In this document: positions 37,495-64,000 of the stretch, piece after piece
Layout: every line of letters begins with the position of its first letter
Position numbering within the stretch: the stretch's first letter is position 1
From: Basidiobolus meristosporus CBS 931.73
Taxonomy: Eukaryota; Basidiobolomycota; Basidiobolomycetes; Basidiobolales; Basidiobolaceae
NCBI GenBank assembly: GCA_002104905.1
Contig: MCFE01000106.1
Span: 105,886-169,885, forward strand
DNA length: 64,000 nucleotides
Direction: 5' to 3'
Made by a program: the position numbers and the translations under genes
The notes under the pieces: model-generated
Database searches by the model: none
Told to the model about the DNA's origin: nothing
The model's input: the letters and a program-made list of their open reading frames with translations, nothing else

Positions 37495-38678
37495 ATGCCA
37501 GGTAAATATTATGTTGCTTCCAAAACCATTGCTGTAAATTAGCATGATGCTGAACAACATCTTCCACTGCGGTCTTAGATAACACGCCAATAACCTGGGT
37601 GACTATGGTGGCAGATTTATTTATCTCCATTTCCTACCTGGCCATCCCGGTAGAAATCTTCTTCTTCCAACGCACTCTGACCCTCCCTCTCCCAATGCTC
37701 TACAAGAGTGTCCTGCTTTTATTCGAGGCTTTCATCACTGCCTGTGGCGCCACCCACTTCGTCACCGTGTGGAGGCCTTTCGCCGATACCGATCTAGCCC
37801 TGTGTGTTGTCAAGGTAGCCACCGCCGTTGTCTCTACCATCACCGCAGCCCTCCTGATCCGAGTCTTCCCCAAGGCGTTCTCGTTGCCAGCCAAGGCAGC
37901 CTGGCTGGAGGAGGAGCTCGGGTCCCATATGCGGCACGAGCAGTCGCTCCGCATGGCCAACGACCTTCTCCTGAAGTTCCGTAAAATCACCCAGCACATT
38001 CGCAAGACACTTGACACCGCATCGGTCTGTCAGACCGCGGTATTCGAACTCTCGGTGGCACTGGGAGTTGGCTGTGCCATATACATCAAGGAAGGGGATA
38101 CTTACGTTTGCACTCATGAGGATTACAGACGCATGAATGATCATTCCCTTCGCCACTCGGACAAAGATGTGTTCTGGCAAAAAATCGCCATCTCAATGGA
38201 TAACAAAGTCATCAACCGAATGACCACGTTATCATATGCCTGCTGCCTTAACAAACGGGATCTCTGTGACATGGTCGGAGAAGGAGTGAATCTACCATTC
38301 AAGGCTGCTATGGGCGTGCGTTTCGAATTAGATGAACCAGACTCAGGGTTCGTGCTGATTTATTCTAGCGATGAAAACTGGAGTTTACCCGAACAAGAGG
38401 TGGAGCTCTTTGAGGATATCGTGGGTCAGATTGAGATAGCGCTACAGCAATCCTCCCAACTTCGTAGCGAATCTCATGGAAAATCAACAATGTCACATCA
38501 CAAACAAAGAAGTCAGAAATACCTCAATGAGCAGAGACTATCCTCACTCCGACAGAGCGCAGTATGCCCTGTGATGCCATCCTCTTCACCACCACCACCA
38601 CCACCACCACCTCCGTTTTCAAGTGATGATATCCAGGAATACGAAGATTACGATACAGAACCCAAATATTGGAATTAG
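37495..38678 (+). CDS. Ethylene-receptor-like sensor lacking histidine kinase, copy 1, 368 aa
   Basis: Exon 1 is only 7 nt (37495-37501, ATGCCAG). A 77-nt GTAAAT...TAG intron leads to exon 2 (37579-38678). Residues 15-105 match the ethylene-binding domain of plant ETR1: three membrane helices with Asp15, Tyr22, Ile25-Pro26 in helix 1 and CGATH (Cys58, His62) in helix 2, the copper ligands, followed by a third helix. A helical linker (KITQHIRKTLD, as in the ETR1 dimerisation region) and a GAF domain (about residues 140-300) follow. The protein then ends in a Ser- and Pro-rich tail with a run of nine prolines and an acidic terminus. No H-box, kinase or receiver is present, and none is encoded just downstream. 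Function as an ethylene or small-olefin sensor is inferred from the intact site. Confidence 0.88.
37640..38111 (+). repeat. Inverted repeat arm 1, 472 bp with one mismatch to arm 2
   Basis: It pairs in reverse complement with 44009-44480. I compared the whole tract by eye and found one difference (C versus T in GAGTCTTCCC). Similarity falls sharply on both sides. The tract covers the second and third membrane helices, the linker and the start of the GAF domain. Confidence 0.9.
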
Positions 38679-39489: not shown

Positions 39490-42400
39490 ATGGCTGATGA
39501 ATTTGATGACTTTGATGATCTCGCACTGGATGATGCTTTTCTGGCTGCTGTTGACCAAATAGAAAAACAGGCCGTTTCCTCACACCCAACCACTCATTCG
39601 TCCACTAATCACATACCTCCGCCTTCACACCAGACCTTCAAACCAACACCAAAAGCCAACTTTGGTTTCAATCCTCCCGATTCTGATTTTAGCAACGACG
39701 GAGCTTTTCCTGTAATATACATTCTTTTACATTACTTGAGAGTACTCTGTACAACTTACTCATATTAAACTCCGTATTAGACCATGTCACGCAACCCACC
39801 CACTTCACGCACCAAGCCGATACCCAAAACACTGAACAGTAAGAAGAAAAATACCGGCTCCAACTCCAATGCCGGAAATCAAAAAACCCTTTGGAGTATG
39901 TTTGCCATGGATAAAGAAAACCCCGATACCATTTCCAAGCCGACCAAGAAACCCACCGTATGTATACTTCTTCTATCCTAGTCTATTCCCGGTGTTTACA
40001 CCTGAATGCTCCCTGTAGAAAACACCCAGCAACGCCTCGAATTCGGTGTTGAAGTTTTCCCCAAACTCTTCGGTGGACATATCTCGATGCGACCCGGACG
40101 CGATCAATACCTGGATTTATCCAATCAATTATCCCCTCCGTGATTACCAGTTCAATATCGTGTCAAAAGCGCTGTTTCAAAACACCTTGGTATCCCTTCC
40201 AACCGGTCTCGGCAAAACGTTCATTGCTGCCGTAGTCATGTACAATCATTACCGTTGGTTTCCTCAGGGGAAGATTGTATTTATGGCCCCGACGAAGCCC
40301 TTGGTGGCCCAGCAGATTGAGGCTTGCCACAATATCTGTGGTATCCCTCAGGAAGATACAGTGGAGTTGACCGGAGCCCAGTCCCCAGACAAGAGAAAGG
40401 TTGATTGGGTCCATAAAAGAGTTTTTTTTCTAACCCCCCAGGTGCTACAAAATGACCTGGTACGGGATACTTGCCCCGCGGAGGATATCGTATGTCTGAT
40501 AATCGATGAAGCTCATAGGGCTCGAGGGGAGCACGCGAATTGCGTTGTGGTTAGGGAGCTTTCTAATAGGAACCCGCTCTTTCGGATTCTAGCGCTGTCA
40601 GCTACGCCAGGTACTGACAATACGACTGTCCAAGACGTGGTGAACAATCTGAAAATCTCCAATATCGAGCTTAGATCCGAGGAATCGCTTGATATCCAAA
40701 AGTACACTCACGGTAGAAAAGTCGATGTCATCGTGGTCCCACTGACGAACACGATCAAGGAGATATCAAAGCAGTTTTGCATATGCATGGAGCCTTACAC
40801 CTCTCGTCTTGTCAGGATGCAGGCAATCTGGGAAAAAGACCCCCAACGGGTATCCAGATATATGCTCATCTTGGCAAGAAATAAATTCCGTGCAAACTCG
40901 GCAGCCTTCTCTCCAGAGCAGAAAGCCACTGTCGAAGGTGATTTTGGGATTTGCCTTGCACTATCGCACGCTTACAGCTTATTGTGCCAACACGGGGTGA
41001 GGCCTTTTTATAGCGCACTTTATGGGATTGTTCAAGAGGCGAAGGACGGAAAGAGAATATCCAGAGCTCGTCAAGATTTGTTGAAGAACCCCGTTTTCGT
41101 CAACCTTATGAATCGTATAGAAAAGATGATGGAAGAGCCGACGTTTATCGGACATCCCAAGCTAGAGAAGCTCGTGTCTTACGTGGTCAACTACTTTGTG
41201 AACCATCAAGAGAACAACGATGGCTTGGAGGAAGACGCTCAAAGCCAAACCCGGGTTATGATCTTCGCCGAATACCGCGAATCCGTTGATGAGATTGTTA
41301 AATCACTTAACGACCATTCACCAATGATCAGACCGATGTCCTTCGTAGGTCAGGCATCTAAGAAGAGCAAGAAAGGCTACACACAGAAAGAGCAGTTGGC
41401 GGTGCTAACCGCGTTTAAAAAAGGCGGGTACAATGTGATCGTATCTACGTGCATTGGCGAAGAGGGTCTGGATATCGGTGAAGTCGATCTTATCATTTGC
41501 TACGATTCCCACAACTCTCCGATTCGACTGCTGCAACGAATGGGGCGTACGGGTCGTAAGCGAAAAGGTAGAATTTGTATGTTGCTTGCCGAAGGAAAAG
41601 AAGAGCAGATGTACAAACAATCGCAAAACACGTATAAATCTATTCAACGGGCCATTGCGTCTGGTTCAAAAATCAGTCTTTACGACGGCAATCCAAAACT
41701 ATTACCGGAAGATGTCAACCCAGTGTGCAGCAAGGAGACGCTGGTTATTCCGGAATACCTAGTCAAAGAAACCAAGAAATCTCGTCGGAAAACAATTGAG
41801 CAAAACGTGCACCTGATCAAGGACGAGGACGATGATATCGAAGGACAGTATATTCGGTTTCTTAGCAGAATCGAGGGCTCGAATATGTCTCTTTCTAAAT
41901 TTGCGAAATACCAAACTACTCCAAGTCCAACATACCTGGTCTCTCATTCCCAACGAACCATTGATTTTGTAAATATAATGAGCGGAATGGAGACATTAGG
42001 TTTTATGGACGATGAAGATCAGTACAGTGCGCAGCTGCAGGGATATCTGAATATGAACGATGTTATCCCATCCAAAATCGCCTACCCTTCCTCGAGAAGG
42101 CCCAAGTCCTTGAAGGGCAACACTAAGCCAGTAATCACCGAGATACAGGCGTCGAATGCTGATGAGAGTTTCCCGCTTATGATGGACCTCGAGGATGATG
42201 CTGACGATTTTATGATCATGCAAGGATTGGAGGGTATCTTTCCTGAAAATAACGCTTCCAGGCCGTCGACATCACGGGAAGCGGCTATCGTTTCTGAAAC
42301 ATCCGGCTCCAGAGCGTATGAAAGTTCAAATAGAGTGGCACCCATAGAAATTGACTTGGAGGATATAGAATACGACGAGTTACCCATAATCCCTCAAAGC

Positions 42401-43099
42401 CCCGAAATGAGTTTTGACACAAATACTCACGAGAATGCAGCTATCGATATTCCTGAGTCGGACGATGATATATTTATTGATGACACCATGGAGCAGGAAA
42501 TGGCGGCTTTAGTGGATTCTCATCAACTCCAGAATCAGCCGGGAACCACTTGCAACTTTCTAAATACCAAAGCAACGAAAACTGTCGGTTCGCCAACCGC
42601 GAATGGCCTAGCAAAACCCACGACCAGAGAATCCCAGCTAACATTCAAGTACAGCTACACTCCGAAGAGTGAGGCCGTAGATGAGAATCAACATTCCCAT
42701 GATGCGTTATTTGAGATCTCCAAGGACATTTCGCTAGATCTGGATAGCTCCTTCACGATTGACGACCCTCACGTCACACATTCATCAACCAAGAAACTGC
42801 CCATCAACCATAGTTACGATCCAAGCAAGGAACCTGCAGTGCAGGATATTCCTCCGTTTCCCAAGAACGTGAAATTTGGTGATTGGCGGGAAGTAGCGAA
42901 GATTTTATCGTCACGGAAGGTCGTTCACACCCCCGCCACCGAACACCAAAAGGGTGTAGATCCCCATGTAACAGATATTTCCTTGACCACAGCAGCCGCC
43001 AAACCCATTATTTCCCCAACGAAGCCACCCAGCGATACAGTTCGCCTAGCAAGTAAAAGCAAGCTGGATCAATTCCGGTTCAAGAGACGTAAATCCTGA
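39490..43099 (+). CDS. MPH1: Mph1/FANCM-type DNA helicase, 1159 aa
   Basis: Three exons join in phase 0: 39490-39711, 39781-39957 and 40019-43099. The superfamily-2 core has the Q/Ia region YPLRDYQFNIV, Walker A LPTGLGKT, APTKPLV, the DEAH box (IIDEAHRARG), LSATPG, a FANCM-type helical insert, then AEYRESVDEI, STCIGEEGLDIG and QRMGRTGRKRKG. The first 25 residues are strongly acidic with phenylalanines (FDDFDDLALDDAFLAAVD), resembling RPA-binding amphipathic helices. The last 400 residues are acidic and low-complexity and end in a basic KFRFKRRK-type cluster. No C-terminal ERCC4 nuclease is seen, as in yeast Mph1. Role: fork reversal, D-loop dissociation and crosslink repair in the nucleus. 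Confidence 0.93.
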
Positions 43100-43498: not shown

Positions 43499-44635
43499 TT
43501 ACATGGGTGTTGTATCACACTGCTTCTCCTGAGATGGATACGATGATTGTATGGAAAGTGAGGTATTCTCGTGAAGATTGGAGAGGCTGAAACCAGCTGT
43601 CTCCTCTGCTTTGGTGTGGGCCCCCGGTTCCTGTGGCTTTCCCTTGGCCTCGTTCCTTATCTGGGCAGATTGCTGAAGTGCAATCTCAATCTGGCCCACG
43701 ATATCCTCAAAAAGTTCCACCTCCTGCTCGGGTAAACTCCAGGTCGCATCACTTGAGTAAATCAATACGAATCCTGAATTACATTCATCTAGCTGGAATC
43801 GGGCGCCCATAGCAGCCTTGAATGGTAGATTCACTCCTTCCCCGACCATGTCACAGAGATCCCGCTGGTTCAAGCAACACGTATATGACAAAGTGGACAT
43901 TCTGTTGATAGCCTTGTTGTCCATGGGGATCACTACCTTCTGCCAGAAAATACTTTTCTCGACATGGCGAAAATGGCGATCGTTTGTTCTTCTGTAATCC
44001 TCATGAGCGCAAACGTAAGTATCCCCTTCCTTGATGTATATGGCACAGCCAACTCCCAGTGCCACCGAGAGTTCGAATACCGCGGTCTGACAGACCGATG
44101 CGGTGTCAAGTGTCTTGCGAATGTGCTGGGTGATTTTACGGAACTTCAGGAGAAGGTCGTTGGCCATGCGGAGCGACTGCTCGTGCCGCATATGGGACCC
44201 GAGCTCCTCCTCCAGCCAGGCTGCCTTGGCTGGCAACGAGAACGCCTTGGGAAAGACTCGGATCAGGAGGGCTGCGGTGATGGTAGAGACAACGGCGGTG
44301 GCTACCTTGACAACACACAGGGCTAGATCGGTATCGGCGAAAGGCCTCCACACGGTGACGAAGTGGGTGGCGCCACAGGCAGTGATGAAAGCCTCGAATA
44401 AAAGCAGGACACTCTTGTAGAGCATTGGGAGAGGGAGGGTCAGAGTGCGTTGGAAGAAGAAGATTTCTACCGGGATGGCCATGTACGACAAGGATATCAG
44501 TAAGTCAGCAATCATTGTTATCCACGAAAGGGCGCTGTTTTCCACTGAATTAAAAGCAATTCATTAATACAGATCATACGGTACGAGAGCAACTCATTTG
44601 CAAATGATGGGGCTAGCGTGTTACGTACTTAGCAT
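43499..44635 (-). CDS. Ethylene-receptor-like sensor lacking histidine kinase, copy 2, 350 aa
   Basis: The layout matches copy 1. Exon 1 is 7 nt (44635-44629, ATGCTAA), then an 84-nt GTACGT...CAG intron, then exon 2 (44544-43499). The ethylene-site residues are Asp16, Tyr23, Ile26-Pro27, Cys59 and His63, all kept. The GAF domain is present but diverged from copy 1 (roughly four in five residues shared), and the tail is different: copy 2 lacks the polyproline run and ends in a Ser/Gln-rich segment. Again no kinase or receiver follows. It lies inverted relative to copy 1 on the other side of the helicase. The shared micro-exon and intron phase show duplication of the whole gene, not of a processed copy. 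Confidence 0.88.
44009..44480 (-). repeat. Inverted repeat arm 2, 472 bp
   Basis: Reverse complement of 37640-38111 with a single visible mismatch. The boundaries are abrupt on both sides. Confidence 0.9.
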
Positions 44636-57812: not shown

Positions 57813-58074
57813 GGTTGTAAGGGGTGACAACCATCAACAGGTGAAATCCTTACTTTGATGACTTAAAATAATGAAGCCAAATGCTACATGGGTTGCTATT
57901 TGTAAGTGAATAAAGAGAAGGGTCATGTTGAGAAAGCTCATAAGAAAGGCCACTAAGTTCAAGTGGAGTTAAAATATAGTTAAGTGACACTGGATGGATT
58001 GCAAAAGAAGGTAGTGGCTTATCAGCAATTGTAACCAAGTTAGATAAGTATGGATAGGAGGAAAGTAAGAATGG
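57813..58074 (-). mobile_element. LINE 3' fragment A, 5'-truncated and diverged
   Basis: The left end has a degraded form of the shared LINE 3' tail (GGTGACAACC, CAACAGGTGAAATCCTTACTT). The minus-strand frame 58038-57850 encodes about 60 residues homologous to the C-terminus of the intact LINE ORF2 (PLPSF, then a PLxxxLTPxEL pattern). It ends on the right at a TTAGGG motif. It is the most diverged copy in the array. Confidence 0.65.
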
Positions 58075-58080
58075 TTAGGG
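58073..58080 (+). repeat. Telomere-like junction motif
   Basis: GGTTAGGG sits exactly between the truncated 5' end of element A and the 3' end of element B. Confidence 0.7.
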
Positions 58081-58573
58081 AGGGAAAGTCACCATTGCAG
58101 TGAAATCTTTATTTTTGCTAAGTAGTTACCCCTATGAGAAGTTCTTGTGATGATCCTGTCAAAAGGCCATCACAAATTTAAAGTCCTGCAACTAAGAGGT
58201 ACTGATCCTGTCAGGACACCATGTAAAGTCCATCAAAAACTTAGTCAAAATTTTTCATTACAACAATATATTAGTGGCTTTTAATTGGTTCCCTGCCAAT
58301 TTGCTCACTTTCTGATCCTGGACACTTGGTCACCTCCTACATTTGTGTACATTGATTGGCTATTGCCTCTTTTTCACACTCCTTGCTTCTTGACTCAACA
58401 GTTTCTCTTACTTTCTATGCATACAAATTGCTTTATTTCTGCTGAAACTTCAGTTGTACCTCAATTGCCAATTGTATTGACCTATACAAGTCCCTATACC
58501 CTACACTAACATTATGCCCAACCCCACACTCAACAAGTAACTCCATTAAAATCCACCATCCAATAAGCATTTC
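58081..58573 (-). mobile_element. Retroelement fragment B (tail plus repeat R)
   Basis: It starts on the left with the LINE tail (AGGGAAAGTCACC, loop, GTGAAATCTTTATTT) and then runs directly into repeat R (58131-58573). No ORF2 C-terminus lies between, unlike element C. It therefore looks like an internally deleted or non-autonomous derivative. It is truncated at the next TTAGGG. Confidence 0.6.
58131..58573. repeat. Direct repeat R, copy 1
   Basis: It aligns with about 58987-59459 in the same orientation with high similarity. Shared blocks include GATCCTGTCAAAAGGCC, GTTCCCTGCCAATTTGCTCA and CTTCAGTTGTACCTCAATTG. Its right edge is the telomere-like junction at 58574, whereas copy 2 continues into other LINE sequence. 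Confidence 0.75.
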
Positions 58574-58580
58574 TTAGGGG
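58574..58580 (+). repeat. Telomere-like junction motif
   Basis: TTAGGGG between fragment B and the 3' tail of element C. Confidence 0.65.
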
Positions 58581-60282
58581 AGGGAAAGTTACCAAGTTGG
58601 TGAAATCTTTATTTGGGTCAAGAACTAATCTAAGCACAAATAAAGAAGCCAATTAAGAAGTCTAGAACCTCTCTAATAAGTAATCTAATTTATGTTTTGT
58701 TTCATCTCTAATGTTTGTTTCAATAAAGTAAAGCTCATCAGGGGTAAATATAAAATTCAAGGGTTTTGGGGGAAGTACAAATTGTAGATGTTTCTGATCA
58801 ATATAATCTAAGACTGGAACCCAGCCTGGGATTAGGTGTAGTAGGAAAGGTGTGTGGACTTGCAAGTAGCTCTGCCACATAGATCTTAGATGGTCCTGAG
58901 CCAGTAGTCTTGGTTTCTCAGTTTTTAAAGTATTGAAGCAAGCTCTGTTACTACAGCAGAGCCAACCAGGGTGTGCCAGCAAGAAGCCCTATGAAAAATT
59001 ATTGAGATGATCCTGTCAAAAGGCCGTCACAAAGTTAATGTCCTGTGACTGAGAGGTACTGATCTTGTCAGGACTCCATCCAGAGACCATTGAAAAATAA
59101 TTGCACCCCAGATTTCACAAAAAACTTTGTCAAAATTTTTCATCACAACAATGTATAAGTGGCTTTTGATTGGTTCCCTGCCAATTTGCTCACTTTTTAA
59201 TCCCATACACTCTATTGCCTCCTACATTTGTGTGAATTGATTGGCTATTGCCTCTTTTTCACACTCCTTACTTCCTGACTCAACCGTTTCTCTTACTTGT
59301 AATGCATACAAATTGATTTATTTCTGTTGAAACTTCAGTTGTACCTCAATTGCCAATTGTATTGACCTGTACAAGTCTCTATACCCTACACAAACATTAA
59401 GCCCAACCCCACACTCAACAAGTAACTCCATTAAAATTCACCACTCAATAAGTATTTCTGCTATAATGCTCTGGTTCCACAATTTTGGCGGGATCTCAAT
59501 GGCTTTATGCCACTGTTCATTCACTGGTCCCACACATCCTGGTCTTCAGCTGGCACTGCAAGGTCTAGCTCCTCATCTGCCAGTCTTTGCAATAAATCCT
59601 TGCAATATTCCAGTGCGTTTTCTTGAGCACTGCTCTTGAGGAAGTGCTGCAACCTCTTGGTGTGCCTATTAATGTTCCAAAACTCCACTGAAGGCATTGT
59701 GATAGTCTTTCAAGCTCTTGACATTGTAGCCTTGTCTGTCAGTGGGATCTCCACTCTGTCAACAATGGAGGCAGTGGAGGCTGTGGTAGACAAATTGCCG
59801 TTTTCAGCAAACTCATCTACCTTGCTGGAGTGTAGCTCAACTGGCTGCGCTTCCAACTATTGTGAAAACAGCTGTTTTCTTGTTGGTAATTCTTCTTGGC
59901 TATGATGGGATTCAGTCTGTTCCTGGCTTGCGGTGTTAATTGGCAAGAACTGCAGTTTTTTTTGCATGCCTCCCTGTCTCAGGCTTGGGTAGACATTTTT
60001 CCCTTTACCTTTCCCTTTATCACTCCCAGGTCTTTCACTGCTACTTTGTCTGAGTGCTTCTTGTAAAGAGCTACATTTTCTCCTAGATACATTCTGCTCT
60101 GACACATCTGTTTTGGCCTACTTGTCCCTGCTGGCACTCTTCTGGCAACCTGATGTTTCTTTTCAGCTTGCTTTGAGCTCTCAACTATAGATGTGACAGG
60201 CTCCTGTAAAAGCAGCTGGTTTTTATCTCTGCCAGGTCCTTCACTGCTACTTTGACTGGGTGCTTCTTGAGTGGTACTACAC
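58581..60282 (-). mobile_element. LINE copy C with ORF1-like and ORF2 C-terminal remnants
   Basis: The left end has the tail AGGGAAAGTTACC-loop-GGTGAAATCTTTATTT. Minus-strand ORF 58982-58662 is an ORF2 C-terminus (a HTPFLLHL block, then PLNFIFTPDEL) of a subfamily distinct from the rightmost copy. Upstream on the minus strand are repeat R copy 2 and then a degraded, frameshifted region with Gln/Ser/Lys-rich ORFs (60282 to about 59500), which I read as ORF1 remains. The 5' end is cut at TTAGGGTTAGG. Confidence 0.65.
58987..59459. repeat. Direct repeat R, copy 2
   Basis: Same orientation as 58131-58573 with substitutions and small indels throughout. It lies inside element C and extends beyond the end of copy 1. 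Confidence 0.75.
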
Positions 60283-60293
60283 TTAGGGTTAGG
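60283..60293 (+). repeat. Telomere-like junction motif
   Basis: TTAGGGTTAGG, nearly two full telomeric units, between element C and the tail of element D. Confidence 0.75.
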
Positions 60294-61064
60294 TGGGAGA
60301 TAGTCACCAACAGGTGTAATCTTTATTTCAGCTGAAACAAAGAAGCCAGCGCTACTGTTGCAGCTTTGATACAACTGTGGGTAGCTGAGGGGAATTTGTA
60401 GGTAAGTTTACAAGAAGTGATGATAGTTCTTCAGTGCTCAAGACACTGTTCAGGGGGAAGGGGGTAGTACAAGGGGTAAGAATGATTTGTGAACAACATT
60501 AATGAGGGGAATATGATAGGGATTGATTTTCATCATAAAGGGAGTGTGCTGCTTCAGATATTGCTGCCAAAGGTCTGTCAAGTACTTCAGGCAGGCCAGC
60601 TTGGGTTTTTCTGACTGCAGAATATAGTGAGCAAACTTCTTGACTTCAGGGTCTCCAAATATAGTTCTCCAGCAGGAGCCAGGTGTAGTGTGGTGTGTTC
60701 TCTTCCAGGTCTTGATCAGTGGGTTGTTGCAGTGGTGAAGTCTGAGATATAATCTGGTTCTAAGGTAGAGTAGTCTGATCTTGTAGGGCATAAACCCAAA
60801 AGCACCAAGAATAGCATGTCCGTAGGGGCATTCAAGTAGATGAGGCACCAGGGATGTAATGCACCAGACTGCAAACTTGTCAAGCTTAGTGCAGTCTCTA
60901 GAAGTAAGAGAGAGAAGTGGTAAGCCAAATTCCAGGACAGGGAAGACAAACTGCTTGAGTAGAAGGAGGCAGCTAGGAGCTGAAGTTGTAGGAGGAGTTA
61001 CAGCCAGTAGCTTGTGGAGTGCTTGTCTTGCCAGGATGATTCTCTTCTTCATGTGTGCTCCAAA
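60294..61064 (-). mobile_element. LINE copy D, 5'-truncated, near-identical to the rightmost copy
   Basis: It aligns to 62154-62925 almost base for base, including the tail and the ORF2 C-terminus (minus frame 61052-60450: a KKRIILARQALHKLLA block). A small indel near the end of ORF2 (G-run at about 60460) shifts the frame, so the last 40 residues present in the other copy are lost. At 61062 the match stops abruptly (GTGTGCTCCA) and telomere-like sequence begins. Confidence 0.85.
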
Positions 61065-61074
61065 GGGTTAGGGG
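61065..61074 (+). repeat. Telomere-like junction motif
   Basis: GGGTTAGGGG directly after the truncation point of copy D and before the tail of copy E. Confidence 0.75.
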
Positions 61075-61608
61075 AGGGAAAGTCACCAAGGTAGGTGAAA
61101 TCTTTATTTGATTGCAGACAAGTCTAACTACAAATAAAGGAGCCAGCTGGGAATAGAAGATTCCCAAAGTAAACACTAAGTTGAATATGAATAAATCTAA
61201 GCTAAAGTTAAGGCAGTATCCCAGAGTACACTGGAGTTCAGGTTCATGGGGGAGTGAAGTAGATAAGCTTGAGAGATATAATAATCCTTTAAGAAGTGGG
61301 TAACAGCAGGTGAAGGGGAGTTTTTGATAAGTGAAGTAAATCTTGAGATCAGAGATTCCTCTAATGAGAAGGTCTTGTAAACTGGAGAATCCGGAAACTC
61401 TTTAAAGGCATGGTCAGTAGGTTCCCAGTAAAACTGGTCAGAGACATTTTGAGAGAACTCTTTAGCAATACTTTTGTCAAGTACTACCTCCATAGTGTGA
61501 TGGTTGATAAATCTCATGTTAACAATCTTGGATAAGTTGTAACCTTGTTGCTTGAGATACATCCTATGATCAGATATAGGAATAAACTCCACATTGGCAA
61601 AGTAGCAG
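61075..61608 (-). mobile_element. Retroelement copy E with ORF1-like C-terminus
   Basis: The tail reads AGGGAAAGTCACC, loop AAGGTA, GGTGAAATCTTTATTT. Minus frame 61592-61197 encodes 131 residues (YLKQQGYNLSKIVNMRF, HTMEVVLDKSIAKEF), a pattern I associate with the end of fungal LINE ORF1 or gag-like proteins; this is inference. No reverse-transcriptase part is present, so this is a deleted or non-autonomous copy. It is truncated at the next telomere-like run. Confidence 0.6.
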
Positions 61609-61624
61609 TAGGGTTAGGGTAGGG
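61609..61624 (+). repeat. Telomere-like junction motif, longest
   Basis: TAGGGTTAGGGTAGGG, more than two telomeric units, between element E and the SINE 3' tail. Confidence 0.8.
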
Positions 61625-62147
61625 GGGAGGAAAGTCACCAAGTGGTGAAATCTTTATTTACTTATGACAAGTATCTAAAGAAGCCAAGTTAATCTGAAGT
61701 AATTCCTAGAAAGCTAGGTCTGAGAGATATCTTCCTGGTAAGCCAGGTCTGAGAGTTGAGAAGCTGAGTGGTACTATATTTCCTAGTTAGCTAGGTCTGA
61801 GAGAGGTTTCCTGGAAAGCCAGGCCTGAGAAGTGAGAATCTGAATATATCTGAGCTAAGTTATACTGGTTTGCGGTAGCTGGATTGTGGCCGGAAAGGCC
61901 AGTAGACTGGGGGAACTGAGATGAATTTCTGGGCGATCACTGGCCAAATTTACTAGGCAAATCTGGCCATTAGCATTTCAAGGATTTCAGCCAATCAGAG
62001 CCTTTACTTTGCCCGATGGTTGATCAAGCCATCTCCCAATGAGCACACATCAATTTATTAATCAAATTTTTTGCTGGATCCAGGATTTGAACCCACAGCC
62101 ATGGGTATGGAAGGGTTAGGGATAACCACAAGGCTAAGTGTTCTTGG
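61625..62147 (-). mobile_element. tRNA-headed SINE sharing the LINE 3' tail, about 520 bp
   Basis: Read on the minus strand it starts with a tRNA-like head. An A-box TTAGCCTTGTGGTTA (62137-62123) and a B-box GGTTCAAATCC (62093-62083) are correctly ordered and spaced for RNA polymerase III. The acceptor arm does not pair, so it is not a functional tRNA. A unique body with four short hairpin repeats follows, and it ends with the same AATAAAGATTTCACC-loop-GGTGACTTTCC tail as the LINE copies. It appears full length between two telomere-like junctions. It presumably uses the LINE reverse transcriptase. Confidence 0.82.
61704..61831. repeat. Four covarying hairpin repeats in the SINE body
   Basis: Units of about 23 nt at 61704-61726, 61733-61755, 61781-61803 and 61809-61831. 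Each has a 5-bp stem and a 4-nt loop followed by GTCTGAGAG (or GCCTGAGAA). Units 1 and 3 have stem CCTAG/CTAGG; units 2 and 4 have CCTGG/CCAGG. This is a compensatory change that keeps pairing. Confidence 0.75.
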
Positions 62148-62153
62148 TTAGGG
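62148..62153 (+). repeat. Telomere-like junction motif
   Basis: TTAGGG followed by a short G-run, between the SINE 5' end and the 3' tail of the rightmost LINE. Confidence 0.7.
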
Positions 62154-64000
62154 GGGAGACAGTCACCAACAGGTGAAATCTTTATTTCAGTTGAAACAAA
62201 GAAGCCAGCGCTACTGTTGTAGCTTTGATACAAGAGTGTGTAGCTGAGGGGAATTTGTAGGTAAGTTAATAAGAAGTGATGATAGTTCTTCAGTGCTCAA
62301 GACACTGTTCAGTGGGAAGGGGGGTAGCAAGAGAGGTAAGAATGACTTGTGAACAACATTAATGAGGGGAATGTGATAAGGATTGATATTCATCATAAAG
62401 GGAGTATGCTGCTGCAGATATTGCTGCCAAAGGTCTGTCAAGTACTTCAGGTAGGCCAGCTTGGGTTTTTCTGACTGCAGAATATAGTGAGCAAACTTCT
62501 TGACTTCAGGATCTCCAAGTATAGTTCTCCAGCAGGAGCCAGGTGTTGTGTGGTGTGTTCTCTTCCAGGCCTTAATCAGTGGGTTGTTGCAGTTGTGAAG
62601 TCTGAGGTATAATCTGGTTCTAAGGTAGAGAAGTCTGATCTTATAGGGCATAAACCCAAAAGCACCAAGAATAGCATGTCTGTAGGGGCATTCAGGCAAA
62701 TGAGGCACCAAGGAGGTAATGCACCATACTGCAAACTTGTCAAGCTTAGTGCAGTCTCTAGAAGTAAGAGAGAGAAGTGGTAAGCCAAATTCCAGGACAG
62801 GGAAGACAAACTGCTTGAGTAGAAGGAGGCAGCTGGGAGCTGAAGTTGTAGGAGGAGTAACAGCCAGTAGCTTGTGGAGTGCCTGTCTTGCCAGGATAAT
62901 TCTCTTCTTCAGGTGTGCTCCAGAGTCTAGTCCAGTAGGAAGGAAAGGAAAGCCAAGATATGTAGCAGAAACCTGAGCAGGTAGAGTGGAGTTCTCCAAG
63001 TTGATGGGAGAGCCCAAAGGTACTGTCTTTGCAATGGAAAGCTGGAGATTATTCTTCTGCAGATACTGGTGGATGGTCTGGGAGTCTTGTTGCACATTGG
63101 AGGAGGATATTCTGATGTCATCAGCAAAGAGAGTAACCAGGCAGTCAGCTGAGAGTCTTGGGAAATCATTCAGGAAGATGGCAAACAGTATAGGACCAAG
63201 CACAGAGCCTTGAACCACTCCATTAGGAACTGAGAACACAGCTGATTGCTCACTTGGGTGCAGAATTCTTGCTTGTGGATCCAGAAACAGAGACCTGACA
63301 AGGAGGGTGAGAGAGGTACTGGAGAAGCATTGCAACTTGGACCAAAGCAGATTTCTGTCAACTGAATCAAAGGCCTTAGTAATATCAAACAGAACAGAGG
63401 GATACTTGCACTGGAGAGAGTGATCTTGGCTAAGTATGACTGCATATTCCAAGGAGAGGCCAGGAACAAAGCCAAACTGTGCAGGATGAAACTTGAGAGA
63501 GTCAGAGTAGAGCTCCTGAGCAAGCAGAAGCTCAAACACCTTTCTGCAGGTGGGCAGCAGAGATATTGGCCTGTAGGAGCTAGGATCCAGGTGCTTTCCT
63601 TTACCCTTGTACAGTGGCAGAACATTTGCAAAGGACCATTCCTCAGGAGTAGAAAGCTGGGCTGAGCATTGCTGAAACAGTGGAAGCAGAAGTGCAGACA
63701 TGGCCTTGGTACTAGTCTTCAGAAGCTCATAGGAGATTGTGTCCACACCTGGAGCAGTAGAGTTGGGAAGCCTCTTGAGCACATTATGGATTCTCCTTTG
63801 ATCAAGTGCAAGTGGGATGGGCAGAGTCTTGAAGTCAGGATGAAAGCCAGGAGTTGAGTGCTGCTTTGTAGAGAAGAAGATGTTAGCCAGCTGTTCTGTT
63901 GAAGGTAACTTCCTGGAAGAGGGCCTCATTGCCCTGTAGAGTCTTGATACTGTTCTTGTTATAGAGTTGGAAGATTGCAGAGGCAAGGAACTCATAATAT
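62154..64000 (-). mobile_element. LINE copy G, the most intact, running off the right edge
   Basis: The 3' end is at 62154 with tail AGTCACC-AACA-GGTGAAATCTTTATTT. Only about 57 bp separate it from the ORF2 stop, so the 3' UTR is very short. The element continues beyond the window, so its 5' end and any endonuclease or ORF1 are not visible. It is the likely source type for copy D. Confidence 0.88.
62211..64000 (-). CDS. LINE ORF2 reverse transcriptase, partial (N-terminus outside the window)
   Basis: About 595 codons are open to the window edge. Reverse-transcriptase blocks are in order: APGVDTISYELLK (block 1), ANVLPLYKGKG and SYRPISLLPTCRKVFE (block 2), AQFGFVPG (block 3), LFDITKAFDSVDR (block 4, block A Asp), NGVVQGSVLGPILF (block 5), LFADDIRI (catalytic FADD, block C), and thumb sequence. 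No RNase H domain follows. The C-terminal 250 residues are an element-specific domain with a CxxCxxx-free helical pattern that recurs in fragments A, C and D. Endonuclease, if any, would lie beyond 64000. The frame is uninterrupted, so the copy could be active. Confidence 0.9.
   Translation of the reverse strand, partial: IMSSLPLQSSNSITRTVSRLYRAMRPSSRKLPSTEQLANIFFSTKQHSTPGFHPDFKTLPIPLALDQRRIHNVLKRLPNSTAPGVDTISYELLKTSTKAMSALLLPLFQQCSAQLSTPEEWSFANVLPLYKGKGKHLDPSSYRPISLLPTCRKVFELLLAQELYSDSLKFHPAQFGFVPGLSLEYAVILSQDHSLQCKYPSVLFDITKAFDSVDRNLLWSKLQCFSSTSLTLLVRSLFLDPQARILHPSEQSAVFSVPNGVVQGSVLGPILFAIFLNDFPRLSADCLVTLFADDIRISSSNVQQDSQTIHQYLQKNNLQLSIAKTVPLGSPINLENSTLPAQVSATYLGFPFLPTGLDSGAHLKKRIILARQALHKLLAVTPPTTSAPSCLLLLKQFVFPVLEFGLPLLSLTSRDCTKLDKFAVWCITSLVPHLPECPYRHAILGAFGFMPYKIRLLYLRTRLYLRLHNCNNPLIKAWKRTHHTTPGSCWRTILGDPEVKKFAHYILQSEKPKLAYLKYLTDLWQQYLQQHTPFMMNINPYHIPLINVVHKSFLPLLLPPFPLNSVLSTEELSSLLINLPTNSPQLHTLVSKLQQ

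Follow-up and report, generated by a model that had tools for sequence, protein, structure and literature searches.

A stack of retroelements at a contig end

The right-hand part of the 64-kb stretch of Basidiobolus meristosporus DNA analysed here (the window) contains a stack of retroelements whose seven 3′ ends, on inspection of the sequence, all face left on the minus strand, as an earlier note on this DNA had stated. TTAGGG-type sequence stands immediately to the left of six of them (58075, 58574, 60283, 61065, 61609 and 62148), again as claimed, while the leftmost, at 57813, has TAAGGGG alone without TTAGGG. The observation of elements stacked at telomere-like motifs is confirmed. Sites resembling (TTAGGG)2 with at most one mismatch occur twice in the window against 0.13 expected by chance; single TTAGGG units are more frequent (0.25% of 26-nt windows in the window's interior).

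From left to right, the stack starts with a degenerate element (57813–58074, minus strand), which matches another contig end at 79% over part of its length, followed by TTAGGG (58075–58080) with the short 3′ remnant of an element that has the tail (58075–58129, minus strand). An unclassified repeat unit (58130–58573, no strand assigned), whose outer end lies at TTAGGG, and a second unclassified repeat (58987–59459) are 83.5% alike, the match covering 58130–58574. Between them lies TTAGGG with a 5′-truncated family D LINE (58574–58986, minus strand), which retains the reverse transcriptase (RT) C-terminus in a 106-aa ORF (58662–58982). The unclassified blocks, including 59460–60282, have a telomeric motif at their outer boundary only (58574 and 60283). 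Further right, the telomeric motif TTAGGGTTAGGT (60283–60294, plus strand) is followed by a 5′-truncated family A LINE (60290–61065, minus strand) comprising the final 777 bp of the 4585-bp reference; GGGTTAGGG (61065–61073, plus strand) by a 5′-truncated, non-autonomous family B element (61075–61608, minus strand) with an ORF1-like protein only (131-aa ORF, 61197–61592); and the telomeric tract TAGGGTTAGGGTAGGGG (61609–61626, plus strand) by a full-length family C SINE with a tRNA-like head (61624–62146, minus strand). The last motif, TTAGGG and then extra G's (62148–62153, plus strand), is followed by a family A LINE (62149–64000, minus strand) with 99.8% identity to the copy on contig C713. 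This copy has a 3′ hairpin (TCACC..GGTGA, 62163–62176, minus strand) just ahead of the C-rich, CCCTAA-facing family A end, and a partial ORF2 encoding RT (62211–63998, minus strand) in the same frame that gives 922 aa in other copies. The source contig stops inside it, at window base 64000, and thus does not continue to the right. The earlier note also held that each truncation point meets the next motif, which alignment bears out for the A copy (60290–61065) and the B copy (61075–61608); the full-length C copy (61624–62146) also reaches the next telomeric motif, but the D copy (58574–58986) and the short element at 58075 each abut unclassified repeat instead.

The autonomous LINE and predicted stop codon readthrough

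The autonomous family A element is about 4.6 kb long and encodes two ORFs in one frame around an in-frame TGA-CTA, ORF1 being followed by an ORF2 with endonuclease and RT. In the intact C713 copy, an ORF1 of 502 aa ends at TGA and is followed by an ORF2 of 922 aa, and TGA-CTA is exact in all 100 copies listed, of 152. A second family, D, is 49% identical to A and has the same TCTGCC TGA CTAC junction, which was found in four of eight fetched D loci. Coding sequence is conserved on both sides of the in-frame stop in A and D (pS 0.756 and pN 0.357 between them), and ORF2 of both families has no methionine ahead of endonuclease motif I. UGA followed by CUA is described as sufficient for readthrough in Ustilago maydis (PMC4207609), and, because family D keeps the junction at only 49% identity, ORF2 is likely to be made through readthrough of the conserved UGA-CUA that closes ORF1.

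The RT matches both RVT_1 (2.6e-25 for P0001) and LINE-1 ORF2. The endonuclease has the APE-like motifs NCNS, GDLN and SDH; its motif II reads LIDVQ or LIDVK, QE being the usual residues at this place, and the Exo_endo_phos_2 match of P0001 (0.00029) is under its cut-off, with the relative P0006 scoring 27.5 bits against a cut-off of 27.4. A pattern search for the C-terminal REL motif (CCHC, RHD/N) found it in none of seven proteins (P0001, family D and P0002–P0006), the family D protein being represented by 866 of about 949 aa with its C-terminus missing. In a tree built without a named R1 element, A, D and five metagenomic proteins formed a single group with 100/100 support, and a profile search with seven sequences retrieved no further close relatives. 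The endonuclease–RT protein, 5′ truncation and conserved 3′ end are features of an APE-type non-LTR retrotransposon (LINE). Many near-identical copies are present in the genome. A segment of the 5′ UTR is duplicated in the C427 copy, and a search with the start of the C323 copy matched only C323 itself, because this copy begins further in than three others.

A 3′ tail shared with non-autonomous elements

The 3′ end common to the family consists of AATAAA, a TCACC/GGTGA hairpin and a C-run, then CCCTAA; when folded, two of four tails were clearly more stable than their shuffles. The 3′ tail of the LINE recurs in the ORF1-only element and in the tRNA-like SINE, and the coexistence of autonomous (LINE A) and non-autonomous members (ORF1-only B, SINE C) proposed in the earlier note was found. 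A/B-box-like motifs were recognised in the SINE head by eye from the usual consensus, and neither ARAGORN nor Rfam returned anything for this head. The smaller elements look like parasites exploiting the LINE lineage.

Telomeric joins and positions across the genome

The tail core GTGAAATCTTTATTT occurs in 1589 forward and 159 reverse copies in the genome (1748 exact cores), compared with 2 and 0 for a reversed control. In the segments analysed, which were mostly picked for holding tails, TTAGGG lies within 26 nt of 62 of 74 compiled tails, TAGGG of six and a G-run only of the remaining six, against backgrounds of 1.8% for TTAGGG and 2.9% for TAGGG in the same segments. Telomeric sequence precedes 68 of 74 tails when TAGGG is counted, as a telomere-directed element would predict. 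At their other end, the elements abut telomeric sequence at 45 of 60 5′ boundaries, and truncated 5′ ends lead through it into a terminal array or the tail that follows; overlap at the 38 filler-free telomeric 5′ joins averages 2.87 nt (0.75 in the null). The 15 boundaries without a telomeric word include some with a G-run only, some passing straight into another tail and about five abutting a different family.

The telomeric tract per join is short (median 11 nt, range 4–37 nt, 73 of 74 joins parsed), with exactly one TTAGGG-type unit at 46 of 74 joins and a register that varies between joins. Uniform insertion into present arrays would leave about 90 nt per join, and a median of ≤11 nt arose in none of 10,000 simulations. 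Joins of family A copies 98–99.8% like the reference also have short tracts, as judged by eye. Truncation points are dispersed along the element and all 74 tail contexts are distinct, on which ground duplication of one old array was rejected.

The earlier note proposed checking whether elements lie within about 50 kb of (TTAGGG)n ends. All 38 listed tails on the ten contigs >100 kb lie ≤25 kb from the contig end that their G strand faces; C558 and C726 are the exceptions among the fetched contigs: one stack on C558 (218 kb) is 96–99 kb away from the end pointed to, and one copy on C726 is oriented away from the near end. With these two excepted, the 38 tails led us to reject an ordinary dispersed LINE; the remaining 62 of the 100 listed tail places are on contigs of 18–20 kb, where end proximity is almost automatic. 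The prevailing orientation places the element 5′ end toward the contig end, and terminal TTAGGG arrays cap truncated 5′ ends directly. An identified element directly adjoins the array in 16 of 21 segments with a terminal array, the other five having no identified member there, and the element beside the array on C82 is only 75% like B. TERT RBD (PF12009) was matched above its cut-off on C880, in two exon-like matches with a TAG within one; a fragment of a telomerase gene is present in this genome.

Probable addition to chromosome ends and alternative explanations

Taken at the level of sequence, these data suggest that B. meristosporus probably harbours a family of APE-type LINEs that add themselves to chromosome ends and have non-autonomous elements in their train, and they support the earlier reading of a telomere-directed LINE cycle. 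With about 11 nt per join rather than the expected 90 or so, priming at nearly bare ends is favoured, and from the anatomy of the joins we infer that the G-strand 3′-OH primes reverse transcription. In such a cycle, a telomere that had become short or eroded would pair, through its G-strand 3′ end, with the C-rich/CCCUAA terminus of the RNA and prime reverse transcription, which would often halt early; telomerase or the next round would then supply one or two repeats via microhomology, and addition would recur. Readthrough of the conserved UGA-CUA would provide the endonuclease and RT of ORF2, machinery that the ORF1-only element and tRNA-like SINE would borrow through the common tail. Counting against this cycle are the 15 boundaries without a telomeric word, the six tails that lack TAGGG, the C558 and C726 exceptions, which lowered our confidence slightly, the five terminal arrays with no identified member beside them and the two of four folded tails that were not clearly more stable than shuffles; the endonuclease is also kept and may cut telomeric repeats.

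It is conceivable, though we consider it unlikely, that the LINE endonuclease instead cuts one strand within terminal TTAGGG arrays, the mechanism proposed for SART/TRAS and MoTeR, with the leftover repeats subsequently contracting to a unit or two. The presence of NCNS, GDLN and SDH and the join tracts of 20–37 nt would fit such nicking, and shrinkage is plausible in that MoTeR interstitial tracts of more than three units are described as breaking easily (PMC7367193), but the 11-nt median is far from the value under uniform insertion, the family A copies closest to the reference also have short tracts, and both the sub-threshold Pfam score of P0001 and the LIDVQ/LIDVK motif weaken the case for an active nick. 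More doubtful still is a reading in which the element RNA serves as a telomerase-like template, its C-run/CCCUAA end annealing repeatedly while the LINE RT itself, rather than telomerase, writes the short and variable TTAGGG/TAGGG and G-run tracts; if true, LINEs, ORF1-only element and SINE would make up a second, layered means of telomere extension alongside telomerase, its dose set by UGA-CUA readthrough. That TTAGGG is an element-encoded 3′ terminus, with stacks built by ordinary side-by-side insertion away from telomeres, is very improbable: the single unit at 46 of 74 joins and the remote C558 stack agree with it, but neither the length nor the register of the tracts is constant, truncated 5′ ends directly adjoin terminal arrays, and all 38 listed long-contig tails are close to the end predicted for them. 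Multiplication of a few old arrays through subtelomeric recombination or break-induced copying, by which MoTeR arrays are described as able to grow (PMC7367193) and with which the duplicated C427 segment would agree, can be practically discounted as the main source of the stacks given the 74 distinct contexts and scattered truncation points.

Comparison with known telomere retroelements

The Basidiobolus stacks look like an unreported retrotransposon lineage adding copies onto telomeres. If so, the telomere retrotransposons of fungi would gain a lineage of APE type, distinct from the REL-bearing MoTeR/FoTeR and found in the phylum Basidiobolomycota, together with an apparent case of a LINE ORF2 expressed by readthrough of a conserved stop codon and what may be a telomere-bound SINE; with 1748 tail cores and many near-identical copies, the sharing of one chromosome end by LINE and telomerase is directly testable. 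MoTeR of Magnaporthe oryzae and FoTeR of Fusarium oxysporum are likewise fungal LINEs at telomeres, and MoTeR, as described, shares the head-to-tail arrangement, with 5′ ends facing the chromosome terminus and TTAGGG separating the copies, as well as 5′ truncation and a non-autonomous partner, the stack on C558 and the copy on C726 being exceptions to this layout in Basidiobolus. The earlier note expected a fungal telomere LINE system with both member types to be notable; both types exist, but such a pairing was already known in MoTeR1/MoTeR2 (PMC7367193), and what is new here is the lineage, its SINE tier and its ORF1–ORF2 junction. While MoTeR/FoTeR belong to the CRE/SLACS group with a C-terminal REL endonuclease, the Basidiobolus elements have an N-terminal APE-like endonuclease, two ORFs sharing one frame on either side of TGA-CTA and a follower in the form of a tRNA-like SINE, and MoTeR/CRE membership was rejected as the pattern search found no REL motif in the seven proteins.

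SART/TRAS are of the APE type, and an APE-type endonuclease with RT in ORF2 and a separate ORF1 are also found here; SART1 ORF2 is made by reinitiation, in contrast to the readthrough predicted in Basidiobolus. These Bombyx mori elements (R1 group) are described as two-ORF LINEs at telomeric repeats, whose 3′ UTR has been suggested to base-pair with the target, that cut inside TTAGG repeats and are full length at telomeres (PMC4700185), whereas most of the Basidiobolus copies are truncated and a join contains about 11 nt of telomeric sequence. The short tracts of variable register argue against fixed-site insertion in long arrays, although contraction may also have produced them. Athena, a group of endonuclease-deficient Penelope-like elements, is likewise described as telomere-associated; the Basidiobolus RT differs in matching RVT_1 and LINE-1 ORF2 and is accompanied by an APE-like domain, and Penelope-like elements were rejected on the basis of this LINE-type RT. 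HeT-A/TART/TAHRE of Drosophila are added serially at chromosome ends with the 5′ end outward, in a host that is not known to have telomerase. Basidiobolus, in contrast, has TERT RBD sequence and terminal TTAGGG arrays, which speaks against a stand-in for absent telomerase, and its joins consist of TTAGGG or G-runs rather than oligo(A).

Layout of the stack and genome-wide orientation

Orientation, 5′ truncation, telomeric joins, terminal caps and shared 3′ tails are features read directly from the sequence. The Basidiobolus meristosporus assembly comprises 89.0 Mb in 1311 contigs, and the window (positions 105886–169885 of its contig, C69) is a right contig end, base 64000 being the last base. 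The element stack occupies 57.8–64.0 kb, and apart from two ORFs within it, the ORFs of ≥190 aa lie at 1.6–51.5 kb. A TTAGGG-type motif was found to the left of the 3′ end in six of the seven elements, as the earlier note had reported. Its further claim that each truncation point meets the next motif held in part, with alignment showing that the first neighbour of the family D LINE copy (58574–58986) and of the short element at 58075 is an unclassified repeat rather than a telomeric motif. Two copies of this repeat unit (58130–58574 and 58987–59459) are 83.5% alike, each adjoining a truncated tail-bearing element.

Across the genome, a search for the tail core GTGAAATCTTTATTT gave 1589 forward and 159 reverse copies (reversed control: 2 and 0), with the same strand bias in TTAGGGTTAGGG (9082 vs 237) and in (TTAGGG)3 starts (179 vs 12). 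At every one of the first 100 of the 1748 tail-core places, the G strand points to a contig end <25 kb away (median distance 4,144, maximum 24,745). Of these places only 38, on 10 contigs >100 kb totalling 1.98 Mb, are informative, because the other 62 sit on ~18–20 kb contigs where nearness to an end is almost automatic. Among contigs listed up to C83, array starts fall on seven, five of which carry a listed exact tail core; none was among the listed places on the array-bearing contigs C35 and C81. Exceptions were sought on contigs of known size (20 of 74 reverse transcriptase (RT) places, 18 of 100 listed junction places and 19 of 150 family D places). On the 218-kb contig C558, one copy (C558:96130, within C558:94630–99411, segment L046) lies 96 kb away from the end where it is expected, with TTAGGG still present at both C558 tails. 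On C726 (69.6 kb), the corresponding distance for one copy (C726:56441–59221) is 56–59 kb, and this copy is oriented away from the end nearest to it. Such copies may reflect a fusion or inversion at an end, or a join made in assembly.

Tails, joins and terminal arrays

Using a pattern that excludes the most degenerate tails, we gathered 74 from 42 merged segments, four of the window's seven among them. Within 26 nt of these tails, TTAGGG occurs in 62/74, TAGGG in 6/74 and a G-run only in 6/74, against backgrounds of 1.8% (TTAGGG) and 2.9% (TAGGG) in the same segments; in the interior of the window the corresponding values are 0.25% and 0.95%. No two of the 74 contexts are identical. The G-run ahead of the tail measures 5–10 nt in family A, 3–5 in family B and 4–8 in family C, and the tails share AATAAA and a 5-bp TCACC/GGTGA stem and are rich in C at the end. 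The stem formed in all four tails folded as RNA (A, B, C and E), with stability clearly higher than that of shuffles for A (z −4.2) and E (z −4.0), but not clearly so for B (−1.5) and C (−1.2).

Family A truncation points are scattered over the element length. Sequence extends past 60 boundaries of families A and C, and a telomeric word lies at the join in 45 of them; 38 of these joins are filler-free, with a mean overlap with the telomeric phase of 2.87 nt (null 0.75), and seven contain 1–5 nt of filler. The 15 boundaries without a telomeric word show a direct G-run or tail, a SINE deletion variant, a 5′ UTR duplication or a different family, whose plus-strand sequence opens with TTGTTGTA or TTGTAAAA (C14:163554–166568, C25:166260–169274, C43:15365–18000, C62:17300–18635 and C558:94630–99411). 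This family, possibly an (ACA)n-ended retroelement resident in the same stacks, adjoins truncated elements without TTAGGG.

Terminal arrays of 49–243 bp run to the end of 21 segments, mostly chosen for their tails, and an identified member directly adjoins the array in 16, including one on C82 only 75% like family B. On C1, ~56 nt of other sequence separates element and array; C23, C45 and C427 have no clear identified member there, and the C58 array adjoins what by eye resembles the TTGTTGTA/TTGTAAAA family.

These observations are most likely explained by end-priming followed by telomerase extension of truncated cDNA in repeated rounds. A short telomere would supply, through its G-strand end, the primer from which the RNA is reverse-transcribed, starting at the C-rich/CCCUAA end; telomerase would then lengthen the truncated cDNA ends, presumably acting at each join, and the cycle would recur. 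A TERT RNA-binding domain (RBD) was found on C880. The main rival is that an endonuclease cuts inside arrays, which contract afterwards. Tracts between elements have a median length of 11 nt (range 4–37, G-run included; 73/74 parsed), with one TTAGGG-type unit in 46/74 joins; had elements inserted at random into arrays as long as those observed, the median would be ~90 nt, and the observed value was reached in 0 of 10000 simulations. In the family A ORF2 protein, RVT_1 matched at 2.6e-25, and the match to an APE-type endonuclease was weak (0.00029, below the cut-off), the latter domain being barely above the cut-off in the metagenomic relative P0006 (27.5 vs 27.4 bits). The endonuclease motifs NCNS, YLPPS, GDLN and SDH were found. 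Motif II, which usually carries QE, reads LIDVQ or LIDVK at the ORF2 N-terminus in A (L041), D (L084) and the relatives P0002 and P0004, and from this motif the endonuclease is possibly altered.

Element families and the ORF1–ORF2 junction

Family A is an autonomous element. Its copy on C713 extends from a tail near 192.7 kb to a 5′ UTR near 197.27 kb and encodes ORF1 (502 aa), one TGA and ORF2 (922 aa); beyond it lie a SINE fragment and a terminal array from 197,425 on a contig of 197,580. Each of the 74 RT places scored, from 1566 candidates, is 99–100% identical to the window RT, and 70 lack an internal stop. Family D has a recurring frame of 949 aa, its ORF2 being 49% identical to that of A. 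Family B on C343 encodes a 240-aa protein as its sole product, and the window copy is 33% identical (E 1e-13) to the C-terminal part of A ORF1. The family C SINE is 523 bp long and starts at base 1 in 14 of 29 aligned pieces. Families B and C may be mobilised by A or D proteins. The motif CCCTAACCCTAA and GGAT repeats lie inside the A 5′ UTR (L071, C713:194400–197500), and CCCTAACCC is also present in the SINE head (window 62100–62146).

Families A and D both have ORF1 and ORF2 in one frame with TGA CTA C between them, and the first Met of ORF2 comes no earlier than residue 142 in A and residue 59 in D. The 13 nt TCTGCCTGACTAC at the junction are identical in A and D despite saturated synonymous sites (pS 0.756, pN 0.357). 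The A junction occurs in 152 copies at ≤3 mismatches, exact in all of the 100 listed; since these copies are young, more weight falls on the A–D comparison as evidence of probable readthrough. Of the eight D loci fetched, four gave the junction sequence, the other four having no exact match to the searched motif. In Ustilago maydis, the three letters CUA after UGA were enough for readthrough (PMC4207609). No paper on UGA–CUA readthrough in a non-LTR element, or on telomeric elements in Basidiobolus, was among those listed from one library of open-access papers.

In the RT tree, a single long-stemmed group (100/100) unites A, D and five metagenomic proteins. Within it, P0003 is the partner of A and P0006 that of D, which makes the A–D split older and means that the lineage is present elsewhere too. 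MoTeR and FoTeR are nearest in behaviour but differ in being REL-type (PMC7367193; PMC12857005). The main text of a 2023 paper on telomere elements gives insects, Giardia, Chlorella, Pyricularia, anole and rotifers as hosts, and does not name Basidiobolus (PMC10088271).

Outside the stack, a FANCM/Mph1-like helicase ORF (named by eye; window 40046–43099) is 100% identical over 56% of length to a B. meristosporus protein. A second protein of this species, 75% identical and on another contig, hints at a duplicated or hybrid genome. On either side of the helicase ORF lie two membrane-sensor-like ORFs (named by eye; 37599–38678, plus strand; 43499–44545, minus strand), alike and inverted relative to each other.
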